A stretch of 64,000 nt of DNA from Rhodobium orientis (GTDB lineage: Bacteria > Pseudomonadota > Alphaproteobacteria > Rhizobiales > Rhodobiaceae). Shown here one piece after another: positions 26,905-34,779 of this stretch. The notes beneath the pieces are model-generated. The model saw nothing but the letters and a program-made list of their open reading frames with translations, searched no databases and was not told the DNA's origin. A program made the translations under genes and the position numbers. The stretch spans positions 1 through 64,000 of the forward strand of contig NZ_NPEV01000029.1 in NCBI RefSeq assembly GCF_003258835.1. Reading direction: 5' to 3'. Numbering within the stretch: the stretch's first letter is position 1; each line of letters begins with the position of its first letter.

Positions 26905-28371
26905 TCAGGCCTTGTTGAAGGCCTCGATCATGCCGTCCCAGATGCCGACGAGGTCCATCAGCCCGTTCCAGAACCCCTGGTCGCGGCGGACATCAAAATC
27001 GGCGAGCGAGACGCCCTGCTGCTCGACCCAGGTGTAGTAGCCGAGATTGAAGATCCGCTCGCGGTCGAAGCGGCCGAGTTCCATCGTGTGATCGGTGGCC
27101 GCGCCCAGCATGTAGCGACCATAGGCTTCCGCCGCATCGAGCGCTTCGAAGCGCCCGCCCGGCACCTTTTCCTCGGCCATGGCGAGTTCGGTCTCGTACA
27201 TCGCCGCCCCGTCGGTGGCCACCGTCAGCACCGCGTCGTCCGGCCCGAGCCCCATATATTTGGCGTATTTGACGGCGCCGAGGATGTTGGCGATGGAGGA
27301 GAGGCCGAGATCGCCGAGACCGGAAAGCGCCTCCTGGGAAAGCCCGGTGCGCTGGCGCAGGTAGTCGCGTCCCGCCGTGGTGTTGAAGACGAGATTCAGA
27401 TTGTCCGTTGCCCGGTCGGAAACGCCGATGACAAAATCGGTGTTCATGATGTTGTGGATCAGCGGCACGTGCTTGTCGCCGATGCCCTGGATGTTGTGCT
27501 CGCCATAACCGTTGTAGAGCAGCGTCGGGCATTCGGTCGCCTCCACCACGCAGATGTCGGTGCCGAGTTCGGCTTTCAGAAAATCGCCGGCGGCGAGTGT
27601 CCCCGCCGAGCCTGACGCCGAGACGAACGCACGGGGCCTCAGCCCCTCACCCACCGCCGCGAAGGTCCGCGCCAGCGCCGGCCCGGTCACCGCCCGATGG
27701 ACAATATAATTCCCGAACTCGGAGAACTGGTTGAAGATGATGTTCTCGTCGTCCTTCGCCAGCTCGTGGCAGGCGTCGTAGATCTCCTTGACGTTGCTCT
27801 CCGTTCCCGGCGTGCGGATGATGTCGGCCGGGTCCGCCGTCCACTCCTCCAGCCAGCGGAACCGCTCCTTGCTCATCCCCTCCGGTAAGACGGCGACGGA
27901 GCGGCAGCCGAGGATGCGCGAGATGGCGACGCCGCCGCGGCAGTAGTTGCCTGTCGAGGGCCAGACGGCGCGGTGCTTGCCGGCATCGAATTTTCCCGAA
28001 AGGAGCCGCGGCACCAGGCAGCCATAGGCGGCGAGCACCTTGTGGGCATGGATCATCGGAAAGCGGTTGCCGAGGGCAACGACGATCTTCGCCTCAACCC
28101 CCGTCAGTTCCGGGCCGAGCACAACGTGATCGGGGACAGGCGCAAGTCCGCGTCGGCCGGCATCGTTGTGCCAGTGGACACGGAAAAGGTTCTCCGCTGC
28201 GGGCGTGTCCGGATCGATGCCGGCGATCTCGGCCATCTTGCCTGCCAGCCGCGCCGGCGGGTCGGCAAGGTCGGCGATCTTCGGCAGGGTGACGCCGGCG
28301 CCGCGCAGGTGTTGCAGGTTCTTGTCGTAGGCGGCCTGATCGATGATGTCGCGTTCCAGCCCGAGGCTCAT
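26905..28371 (-). CDS. Fold-type-II PLP-dependent enzyme (cysteine synthase-like lyase)
   Basis: 488 residues from ATG 28371, overlapping the preceding stop as ATGA. The likely PLP region is FDAGKHRAVWPSTGNYCRGGVAISRILGC, where STGN is the substrate/PLP loop of the tryptophan synthase beta family. Later SASGSAGTLAAGDFL supplies the Gly-rich phosphate loop. At 488 residues it is longer than cysteine synthase (about 310), with an N-terminal extension and a C-terminal helical part. Last gene of the TRAP-dpaL-carbamoylase operon. It probably eliminates or replaces a group on the amino acid released by the upstream hydrolases. Exact reaction unknown. Confidence 0.75.
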   Translation of the reverse strand: MSLGLERDIIDQAAYDKNLQHLRGAGVTLPKIADLADPPARLAGKMAEIAGIDPDTPAAENLFRVHWHNDAGRRGLAPVPDHVVLGPELTGVEAKIVVALGNRFPMIHAHKVLAAYGCLVPRLLSGKFDAGKHRAVWPSTGNYCRGGVAISRILGCRSVAVLPEGMSKERFRWLEEWTADPADIIRTPGTESNVKEIYDACHELAKDDENIIFNQFSEFGNYIVHRAVTGPALARTFAAVGEGLRPRAFVSASGSAGTLAAGDFLKAELGTDICVVEATECPTLLYNGYGEHNIQGIGDKHVPLIHNIMNTDFVIGVSDRATDNLNLVFNTTAGRDYLRQRTGLSQEALSGLGDLGLSSIANILGAVKYAKYMGLGPDDAVLTVATDGAAMYETELAMAEEKVPGGRFEALDAAEAYGRYMLGAATDHTMELGRFDRERIFNLGYYTWVEQQGVSLADFDVRRDQGFWNGLMDLVGIWDGMIEAFNKA

Positions 28372-29300
28372 TTGGTGTCTCCGGAGACCGCGCCCTTGGT
28401 CGCGGTGATCAGCTGATAGTTTTCCGGCTCCCGGTGGAGCGCGAAGTTGAAGACGTTGGACCTGATTTCCTGGCACCTGTCGAGGTCGCACGGGGCAACG
28501 ACGACCTCGTCCTCAAGGCCGGCGCATTCGGCAACCACCTCGCCGGTCGGCGCGATGATGCAGGTTCCGCCGATGAGGTCGCATCCCTCCTCGCGGCCGG
28601 CCTTGGCAACGCCGACGACCCAGGTGCCGTTCTGGTAGGCCCCGGCCTGCATGACGAGGCGGTTGTGGAAGTCCTGCAGATAGTCGTGCTCCGGCGCCGG
28701 CGGATAGTGCAGCGGCGTGTTGTAGCCGAGCACGATCATCTCCGCGCCCTTCAGGCCCATGACCCGGTAGGTCTCCGGCCAGCGGCGGTCGTTGCAGATG
28801 CACATGCCGACCTTGCCGCCGAACGCCTCGACCACGGGAAAACCGAGATTGCCGGTCTCGAAATAGCGCTTTTCCAGGTGCTGGAACGGCCGCCAGGGTT
28901 CGTTGTCGAAATGGCCGGGCAGATGCACCTTGCGGTATTTGCCGACGATCTGACCTGCCTTGTCGACGAGGATCGCGGTGTTGAAGCGCTGGCCGTCCGG
29001 CGTCAGTTCGGCATAGCCGAGATTGAAGCCGATGGAGAGCTCGCGGGCGAGGTCGAACAGCGGCTGGACGTCCGGGTTCGGCATGCCGCGTTCGAAGAAG
29101 CGCTCGATCTCGGCATCGGTCACCATGTACCAGCGCGGAAAGAAGGTGGTGAGCGCCAGCTCCGGAAAGACGACAAGATCCGCGTGCTCGTCCTTGGCCT
29201 CGCGAAGCAGCGCCATCATCCGGGAGACGGCGGAGGAGCGCGGCTCGTCGAGGGCGATCGGCCCCATCTGGGCGGCGGCGACGTTTACGATACGGGACAT
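28368..29300 (-). CDS. N-carbamoyl-D-amino-acid hydrolase (nitrilase superfamily)
   Basis: 310 residues from ATG 29300. Hydrolyses N-carbamoyl amino acids to amino acid, CO2 and ammonia. The catalytic triad is visible: Glu47 (VVFPELALTTFFPRW), Lys124 (KYRKVHLPGH) and Cys169 (CICNDRRWPETYRVMGLKGAE). By memory it closely resembles Agrobacterium D-carbamoylase (about 304 residues) through blocks such as GFNLGYAEL, RPFQHLEKRYFE and DEV..A.CDLDRCQEIR. Stop overlaps the PLP-enzyme start, and the M20 hydrolase ends 4 bp upstream. Having two carbamoylase-type enzymes adjacent suggests handling of both enantiomers or of two ureido groups. Confidence 0.88.
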   Translation of the reverse strand: MSRIVNVAAAQMGPIALDEPRSSAVSRMMALLREAKDEHADLVVFPELALTTFFPRWYMVTDAEIERFFERGMPNPDVQPLFDLARELSIGFNLGYAELTPDGQRFNTAILVDKAGQIVGKYRKVHLPGHFDNEPWRPFQHLEKRYFETGNLGFPVVEAFGGKVGMCICNDRRWPETYRVMGLKGAEMIVLGYNTPLHYPPAPEHDYLQDFHNRLVMQAGAYQNGTWVVGVAKAGREEGCDLIGGTCIIAPTGEVVAECAGLEDEVVVAPCDLDRCQEIRSNVFNFALHREPENYQLITATKGAVSGDTK

Positions 29301-29304
29301 GCCC

Positions 29305-34258: not shown

Positions 34259-34260
34259 GA

Positions 34261-34779
34261 TCAGATCTCCGCCCGGTCGGCGGCCGCATGGACGTCGGAC
34301 GCAAAGAAGTCGTGGATCGCAACGAGGCAGAGCTGGATGCAGGCCAGTCCGGCAGCCAGCGGCACGCCGATGAACGGATAGGCCTTCGGCATCTCGTAGA
34401 TCATGGTGAGCCTTGAGAAGCCGCGCTCCACGAAGCCGATGCCGTAGATGAAGATGACGGCGAAGAAGGCGAAGGCGATGACGTCGAAGGCGATGGCGAG
34501 CAGCTTGCGCACCAGCGGCGGAAAGCGCTCGAAGATGACCAGCATGCCGATATGCTCGCGGTGCGAGATGCCGCTGGAGACGGCGAGCAACGCCATCCAG
34601 ATCATCAGGTAGCGGGCTAGTTCCTCGGTAAAGGTCCAGTTCGACGGCAGCACGTAGCGCACCAGCACGCCGAGCCAGACATCGAGCACCAGGAGGATGA
34701 GAAGGCCGACGCAGAGCCGCTCGACAAACCAGTTGAGCCGCCGGCTGAGGCCGATCGCATGCCGTGCCAGATCCTGCAA
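34261..34779 (-). CDS. TRAP transporter small permease (DctQ family)
   Basis: 172 residues from TTG 34779; the next in-frame ATG comes 58 codons later and would remove the first membrane helix, and GAGGGG lies about eight bases upstream of the TTG. Four membrane segments, with the family block WTFTEELARYLMIWMALLAVSSGISHREHIGM. Pairs with DctM. First gene of the operon, 57-106 bp from the two RpiR-type operators. Confidence 0.88.
   Translation of the reverse strand: MQDLARHAIGLSRRLNWFVERLCVGLLILLVLDVWLGVLVRYVLPSNWTFTEELARYLMIWMALLAVSSGISHREHIGMLVIFERFPPLVRKLLAIAFDVIAFAFFAVIFIYGIGFVERGFSRLTMIYEMPKAYPFIGVPLAAGLACIQLCLVAIHDFFASDVHAAADRAEI

Follow-up and report, generated by a model that had tools for sequence, protein, structure and literature searches.

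The window analysed here, a 64,000-nucleotide stretch of Rhodobium orientis DNA (contig NZ_NPEV01000029.1, positions 1 to 64,000), contains an operon of seven minus-strand genes which extends from the start of dctQ at 34779 to the end of a gene for a pyridoxal phosphate (PLP) enzyme at 26905. The first three genes encode the small membrane subunit (dctQ, 34261-34779, TTG start; PF04290, 87.6 bits), the large membrane subunit (dctM, 32978-34258; PF06808, 376.9 bits; TIGR00786, 406 bits against a cut-off of 268) and the solute-binding protein (dctP, 31868-32908; PF03480, 261 bits) of a tripartite ATP-independent periplasmic (TRAP) transporter, which is complete since each of the three proteins scores above its Pfam cut-off. 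They are followed by dpaL (30534-31754), of the 2,3-diaminopropionate ammonia-lyase family (NF006058, 451 bits, cut-off 276), by an M20 hydantoinase/carbamoylase-family amidohydrolase (29305-30537; TIGR01879, 401 bits, cut-off 204), by a nitrilase-type N-carbamoyl-D-amino-acid hydrolase, hereafter D-carbamoylase (28368-29300; CN_hydrolase, 192 bits), and by a PLP fold-type II enzyme of the cysteine synthase/cystathionine beta-synthase type (26905-28371; PF00291, 48.7 bits, cut-off 35). An earlier note, made from the sequence alone, had described this single unit; all seven genes were recovered where it placed them, and the family matches agree with the names it gave. It had also described most joints as overlapping or within a few bases, which holds for four of the six: the gaps from dctQ to the PLP gene are 2, 69, 113, -4, 4 and -4 bases, and both joints flanking dctP are loose.

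The operon is bounded upstream by a divergent plus-strand gene for a MurR/RpiR-type regulator (rpiR, 34924-35829; HTH_6 plus SIS, HTH_6 47.9 bits), for which an alternative start at 34978 is possible. Between the two lie an inverted repeat, TGAAA-N6-TTTCA, which we treat as a candidate operator (34837-34852) and which has its sole exact copy within the window at this site, and a minus-strand promoter-like site 5' of dctQ (34884-34911) that carries little weight alone, one such site being found where 1.2 are expected by shuffling. Directly 3' of the PLP gene is a terminator-like hairpin of 13 pairs with a T-rich tail (26855-26887, minus strand). The number of terminator-like sites in the region is at chance level, because four were seen against 4.5 expected; the three besides this hairpin have five pairs each. 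Third-position G+C is 82-93% in the operon versus 83-91% in eight neighbouring genes, so that its composition is unremarkable. The gene order recurs across dozens of genomes, which is more than chance.

The residues expected of DpaL and of the D-carbamoylase are strictly retained. When aligned to the solved diaminopropionate ammonia-lyases 4d9g and 5ygr, DpaL has Lys85, Asp134 and Asp203 invariant in 80 of 80 relatives. The nitrilase-fold enzyme finds its best match among solved N-carbamoyl-D-amino-acid hydrolases (418 bits to 1fo6), and alignment to 1fo6 shows Glu47, Lys124, Cys169, Arg172 and Arg173, that is a Glu-Lys-Cys triad and two arginines, to be invariant in 57 of 57 relatives; we take the invariant residues of both enzymes to be catalytic. 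In DctP, Arg179 is invariant across 36 of 36 aligned sequences. An arginine of this type holds the substrate carboxylate in TRAP binding proteins, and its retention therefore makes an open-chain acid a likelier ligand than a hydantoin or a purine. The DctP model (predicted local distance difference test, pLDDT, 88) has TRAP binding proteins as its nearest solved chains, at Z 32-36 and 20-35% identity. An attempt to name the substrate from these relatives was dropped at that level of identity. The earlier note had likened the pairing of DpaL and M20 hydrolase to E. coli ygeX-ygeY, a parallel that fails at the second gene: the YgeY model TIGR03526 is absent from the 23 models that match the operon's M20 protein at E 0.001, and by this family test the protein is not a YgeY.

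The recurrence of this arrangement was measured by scanning named genomes with an alignment of DpaL, which confirmed 397 stretches, of which 80 loci were kept. These were picked by their similarity to the window's DpaL, and the locus frequencies given here are therefore valid for this DpaL neighbourhood only. Genes in the loci were found by tblastn and per-locus codon models. Of the 80, 20 had less than 5 kb of sequence beyond dpaL and were excluded from the counts, leaving 60; the residue counts and trees were made after removal of short rows (D-carbamoylases from 60 to 57, M20 proteins from 60 to 54). D-carbamoylase occurs in 52 of the 60 loci, M20 in 45 and both in 44, and by record title the core spans alpha-, beta- and gammaproteobacteria. 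The constant part is thus DpaL with two carbamoylase-type hydrolases, of which D-carbamoylase is the more constant. The importer varies. Of the D-carbamoylase loci, 43 extend 6 kb or more upstream; 25 of these have a TRAP transporter, seven an oppBC-type ATP-binding cassette (ABC) importer, four a major facilitator superfamily transporter and seven none of these.

The earlier note knew of no described pathway with such a combination, but a counterpart has been described: the lower half of the reductive urate pathway, published in 2025, which has other enzymes at the two ureido steps. According to two papers on that pathway (PMC12507026, PMC12990295), urate is reduced by XdhD and YgfK and opened by SsnA and HyuA to 2,3-diureidopropionate, from which the ureido groups are removed by YgeW (in C. 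difficile by UacY, a D-aminoacylase) and YgeY; albizziin has been proposed as an intermediate of this route in both E. coli and C. difficile. The authors of the first paper describe YgeX as the last enzyme, giving pyruvate and ammonia and accepting both isomers, report that E. coli YgeY and YgeX convert albizziin to pyruvate, and describe a D-specific hydantoinase as well as the C. difficile D-aminoacylase acting on the 2-ureido group (PMC12507026). The stereochemistry predicted for the operon's D-carbamoylase agrees with these D-specific steps. The order and stereochemistry of ureido cleavage have been named open questions (PMC12990295).

The link between this pathway and the operon's core is provided by gene clusters in two other groups (handles such as L120 and G060 denote our loci and genomes). 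In the Pleomorphomonas family, ygfK is present in 13 of 20 genomes, and in all 13 the order is dpaL-M20-D-carbamoylase-ygfK-xdh-ssnA. A divergent rpiR lies 5' of the core in 12 of these clusters; the thirteenth is split over two contigs, which hides the place of rpiR. The contig of one cluster stops within ssnA, and in two (L193, L200) the D-carbamoylase match is in two pieces, reflecting a frame shift or an assembly error. The Pleomorphomonas molybdenum hydroxylase passes the XdhD-type model TIGR03311 (886 bits, cut-off 830). In a metagenome-assembled genome (MAG) of Afifella, a complete operon of the window's type, TRAP and PLP genes included, is convergent with xdh, a gene for a flavin adenine dinucleotide (FAD) subunit, ssnA and ygfK. 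Here YgfK passes its cut-off (872 bits, cut-off 835), as do SsnA by PRK07203 (484 versus 444 bits) and an upstream purine permease (426 bits, cut-off 414); SsnA is just short by TIGR03314 (452 versus 456), and the molybdenum hydroxylase is under the TIGR03311 cut-off (769 versus 830).

The enzymes which serve the ureido steps in the published route were sought in 17 genomes, namely those of the 13 Pleomorphomonas kin, Afifella, the window's organism, G060 and G084. None of the 17 has a YgeY (TIGR03526) or a YgeW (TIGR03316) over cut-off, each model being passed by one of 14 control genomes; the UacY family was outside this search. Two other ureido-removing enzymes would therefore be needed, and the operon holds two. 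In the Pleomorphomonas and Afifella setting, it is probable from gene content that M20 and D-carbamoylase strip both ureido groups of 2,3-diureidopropionate before DpaL acts. A hydantoinase (TIGR02033) is over cut-off in 14 of the 17 genomes and in 32 of 47 dpaL-locus genomes, two sets that overlap; for 12 of the 13 Pleomorphomonas kin it lies elsewhere in the genome. The core is not a general marker of urate degraders. That idea was rejected, as YgfK was found in two of 52 searched genomes with dpaL loci, both times in the core's own cluster (L070 was left out of this search, and the YgfK and hydantoinase genome sets include a few in which the locus has no D-carbamoylase: L050, incomplete, L053 and L068). 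More broadly, the N-terminal part of YgfK matched in none of 385 genomes of the class, with at most three candidates scored per genome, and the same search gave weak matches at residues 489-584 in three of the 385 and nothing more.

Several lines of evidence tie the window's operon to these urate-type clusters. All three trees were quick, with support from the Shimodaira-Hasegawa-like approximate likelihood ratio test (SH-aLRT) and no bootstrap, and with roots at midpoint or set by hand. In the M20 tree, the window and Pleomorphomonas proteins fall within one 56-row clade of dpaL-adjacent enzymes (SH-aLRT 99), outside which are two M20 proteins from hydantoinase clusters, one from a Paracoccus plasmid and two whose genes do not adjoin dpaL. 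The D-carbamoylase tree has a 61-row group (SH-aLRT 96) comprising all 60 dpaL-linked rows and one long-branch outsider. The window's proteins are 61% (DpaL), 68% (M20), 71% (D-carbamoylase) and 69% (PLP enzyme) identical to those of Afifella, and 51%, 59% and 63% identical to the first three of Pleomorphomonas. Of the 43 D-carbamoylase loci that extend 6 kb or more upstream, 30 have an rpiR relative near dpaL. Exact TGAAA-N6-TTTCA copies, always with six bases between the arms, occur in 19 of 30 rpiR-operon intergenic regions, the window's included (shuffled mean 0.024). With up to one mismatch the count becomes 28 of 30 (shuffled mean 0.166). All 11 Pleomorphomonas-family regions have the motif, one of which (L189, the contig of L120 met a second time) was already among the 30. 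Taken together, the trees, the invariant residues and the common operator imply that the same enzymes, the same family of regulator and, likely, the same regulator site serve both the window's operon and the urate-type clusters.

Based upon these observations, we favour, with moderate confidence, a model in which the operon carries out the lower half of the reductive urate pathway by hydrolysis, working alone on an imported ureido-diaminopropionate and under the control of RpiR. The TRAP transporter would import a ureido-substituted 2,3-diaminopropionate with a free carboxylate, the likeliest candidates being 2,3-diureidopropionate and its mono-ureido forms. D-carbamoylase would then take off the 2-ureido group (in the D series) and the M20 hydrolase the 3-ureido group, yielding 2,3-diaminopropionate, CO2 and ammonia, and DpaL would convert the diaminopropionate to pyruvate and two ammonia, with RpiR acting on the operon via TGAAA-N6-TTTCA. 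In this scheme we infer the substrate, the assignment of each hydrolase to a ureido group, the order and stereochemistry of the steps and, in the window's genome, the outside origin of the substrate. The earlier note had proposed the same substrate class, to be stripped by both hydrolases and then split by DpaL, and the Pleomorphomonas and Afifella clusters point there. Its example of albizziine fares less well. The compound is indeed a proposed intermediate of the published urate route. D-carbamoylase, however, acts on an alpha-N-carbamoyl group and would therefore be superfluous for plant L-albizziine alone, so that a bis-ureido acid or a D-2-ureido acid fits this enzyme better.

A number of findings weigh against this model, beginning with the window's own genome (5.19 Mb, 98.5% complete). 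Neither it nor its relative G060 has a match to a YgfK N-terminal query (UacX was outside the search), the window's genome matching the YgfK model solely in the reductase half, from position 435 onward; nor does either have an SsnA ortholog, the best match being 29-30% identical (for the window's genome 29%, 100 bits), or a D-hydantoinase HyuA over the TIGR02033 cut-off of 393 (220 and 217 bits). With these upper-half enzymes not found, the urate link rests on orthology and not on this genome. As far as tested (XdhD and UacX were outside the search), the window's operon is a lower half without the upper half, led by a TRAP transporter, and since YgfK, SsnA and D-hydantoinase are not over cut-off the operon there probably scavenges an imported ureido acid. 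The urate-type clusters have their own shortfalls. The Pleomorphomonas YgfK (L120, L122) scores 399 bits to TIGR03315, matching the first 395 of 1012 positions and not reaching the cut-off of 835; its SsnA relative is below both cut-offs (PRK07203, 254 versus 444 bits; TIGR03314, 239 versus 456); and no hydantoinase was seen within the Pleomorphomonas cluster stretches. The Afifella linkage comes from one MAG, with ygfK in one of 11 genomes of that family. DpaL from the window and from Pleomorphomonas fall under the cut-off of 532 bits for the narrower YgeX equivalog TIGR03528 (307 and 369 bits), even though the window's protein passes NF006058, and the DpaL tree mixes D-carbamoylase-linked and unlinked enzymes. 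The window's D-carbamoylase, at 63% identity to that of Pleomorphomonas, is barely closer to it than to hydantoinase-linked plasmid enzymes (58-59%). Finally, the two hydrolases are not always found together: eight of the 60 loci have D-carbamoylase without M20, one has M20 alone and seven have neither.

Two observations from these comparisons stand apart. The YgfK of L122 (13417-15441) is 674 residues long and matches model positions 4-395 of 1012. With the match confined to these positions, the NAD(P)H-type half seems absent and another electron donor may serve. The DpaL tree was also considered as a marker of the module and rejected, as D-carbamoylase linkage is scattered over it (seven changes versus a shuffled mean of 7.7).

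The model of the operon's last PLP enzyme (pLDDT 81) matches, at Z 28-30, the folds of O-acetylserine sulfhydrylase and cystathionine beta-synthase, and the protein passes none of the curated cysteine synthase and cystathionine beta-synthase equivalogs (for cysK, 71 versus 351 bits). A more specific identity was sought by fold search, which gives the general cysteine-synthase type and nothing narrower. The gene is present in 15 of the 80 loci, 14 of these with both hydrolases, and in 11 of the 60 with at least 5 kb downstream. Among 12 contigs around matches to the enzyme, some of them short or poorly called, two have the full operon and three have F420-type or luciferase-like monooxygenase (LLM) genes. 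At L040, L041 and L043, orthologs of 55-61% identity adjoin a CoA-transferase-like pair and an LLM-type oxidoreductase, and two of the three are also near LamB/YcsF-like and F420-biosynthesis-like genes (names by eye, except for the LLM protein of L041). These orthologs belong to a different gene cluster.

The strongest rival explanation, which we nonetheless consider unlikely, holds that the two hydrolases are a stereo-complementary pair, D-carbamoylase acting on the D form and the M20 enzyme on the L form of 2-ureido-3-aminopropionate, with DpaL, to which both isomers are acceptable, completing the breakdown. Such a pairing would be in keeping with the Rhizobium and Aminobacter plasmids on which D-carbamoylase and M20 sit with a hydantoinase and no annotated dpaL, with the eight loci of 60 that retain D-carbamoylase alone, and with the five loci among the 80 that hold racemase-like genes (named by eye). 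It sits poorly with the Pleomorphomonas clusters, the upstream enzymes of which should give a bis-ureido acid with two groups to remove and no YgeW or YgeY over cut-off. It is less probable still that the imported substrate is plant-type albizziine (L-2-amino-3-ureidopropionate) or another 3-acylated diaminopropionate, with D-carbamoylase reserved for a side substrate. Such a compound would call for no more than DpaL, an M20 hydrolase and a TRAP importer, and the conversion of albizziin to pyruvate by E. coli YgeY and YgeX (PMC12507026) is a precedent; yet D-carbamoylase is the steadier partner of DpaL (52 of 60 loci, versus 45 of 60 for M20) and would have no step here, since the alpha-amino group is free.

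We regard as equally improbable that the operon handles N-carbamoyl amino acids with another side chain, the products of hydantoins, with the DpaL relative acting on serine or another beta-substituted alanine. Four of the 80 loci do have hydantoinase genes no more than 10 kb from dpaL, and 32 of the 47 searched dpaL-locus genomes have a hydantoinase over cut-off. The other 15, the window's included, have none over cut-off (among them G152 has two partial contig-end matches, maybe of one gene, and the locus of G167 has no D-carbamoylase); in addition the DpaL family model is passed (451 versus 276 bits), Lys85, Asp134 and Asp203 are invariant, and the core is joined to ygfK-xdh-ssnA. We give least credence to the last PLP enzyme being the main lyase, splitting 3-ureidoalanine to pyruvate, ammonia and urea and leaving DpaL to the fully stripped product. 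Its fold is O-acetylserine-sulfhydrylase-like, members of that family form aminoacrylate from beta-substituted alanines, and in L053 the PLP gene comes after dpaL with no hydrolase gene detected in between. Against such a central role, the gene is not seen in 65 of the 80 dpaL loci (some of them incomplete) nor in the 13 Pleomorphomonas-family cluster stretches, and its orthologs occur in unrelated clusters as well.

We also put forward, tentatively and as less likely than not, a broader proposal: some proteobacteria that are unable to reduce urate would carry the lower half by itself, as a free-standing uptake module under RpiR control, and would use it to scavenge 2,3-diureidopropionate or D-ureido-diaminopropionates from urate-degrading neighbours. 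On this view, processing such acids would also be a natural function for some members of the D-carbamoylase family, which so far is familiar mainly from industrial use. If the free-standing form does scavenge in this way, urate breakdown would leak a carbon and nitrogen source to other bacteria. The preferred model would also add conserved alphaproteobacterial clusters to a pathway known from anaerobic and gut bacteria, and with its D-specific carbamoylase and distinct M20 enzyme the order and stereochemistry of ureido cleavage could be tested directly on enzymes of well-studied families. It offers, furthermore, a natural substrate for D-carbamoylases, the natural function of their partner hydantoinases having been called still unclear in a 2012 paper (PMC3546935). 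The pathway itself is known, and public records such as that of plasmid pRACO34Ab already label the three genes by family name. Among the literature matches listed, a D-carbamoylase joined with a diaminopropionate ammonia-lyase or with the urate route was not found in print, and neither were the enzyme pair, the alphaproteobacterial clusters or the free-standing form (PMC12666987 lying outside this comparison); the main text of Li et al. has no mention of nitrilase, PF00795 or CN hydrolase and does not name alphaproteobacteria.

Variants of the locus and other parts of the window merit brief description. Eleven betaproteobacterial loci (e.g. L079:8304-9737) have a D-aminoacylase-like gene near dpaL (by eye; PRK09061, 179 bits, cut-off 340), which is the type of enzyme used by C. 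difficile (UacY) on the 2-ureido group. In Roseibium (L099, L116), dpaL and D-carbamoylase occur without M20 and with hydantoinase, amidase, opp-type ABC and racemase-like genes (mostly by eye), and this version may have a hydantoin as its starting compound. Elsewhere in the window, positions 47850-57212 hold by eye an ABC importer, a class III aminotransferase, a beta-keto acid cleavage enzyme, a histone-deacetylase-family hydrolase, a DAO-type oxidase and a RidA-like protein, and the region looks like a polyamine or amino acid breakdown unit. At 40119-42565 there are two adjoining genes without a Pfam match at E 1e-5, between dehydrogenase-like and M19 dipeptidase genes.

One known system with which the operon can be compared is ergothioneine degradation. 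Its ErtE (N-carbamyl-L-glutamate amidohydrolase), which accompanies ErtD (hydantoin-5-propionate amidohydrolase), is likewise an M20-family enzyme that takes a ureido group off an amino acid, but the window's M20 protein is under the ErtE cut-off (335 versus 520 bits), and we know of no dpaL in that route. The hyu clusters of Agrobacterium-type plasmids share the D-carbamoylase family, an adjacent M20 hydrolase and, in Rhizobium oryzihabitans, an RpiR regulator. They differ in that no dpaL is annotated in the stretches examined, a dihydropyrimidinase is part of the cluster, and their M20 and D-carbamoylase proteins branch outside the dpaL-linked groups. A wider search for the same module among Agrobacterium-type D-carbamoylases gave no support, dpaL being annotated in one of seven records examined among 48 matching plasmid records. 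Plasmid pRACO34Ab of Rhizobium sp. ACO-34A has diaminopropionate ammonia-lyase, Zn-dependent hydrolase and N-carbamoyl-D-amino-acid hydrolase annotated in the same order; unlike the window it has a spermidine/putrescine-type ABC importer nearby and, in that stretch, no annotated TRAP gene or PLP enzyme like that of the last gene. A three-gene molybdenum hydroxylase-like set follows its dpaL-M20-D-carbamoylase genes (L202).

The main comparison is with the reductive urate pathway. The operon has D-carbamoylase and a hydantoinase-type M20 enzyme in place of YgeW/UacY and YgeY, both of its ureido steps would be plain hydrolysis without carbamoyl phosphate, and in the window it adds TRAP import, RpiR control and a PLP gene while lacking, as far as searched, the upper half. 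In both, DpaL or YgeX would act last, after two ureido groups have been removed from a diaminopropionate core; the operon's own core is found within the ygfK-xdh-ssnA clusters of the Pleomorphomonas family and beside one in the Afifella MAG.

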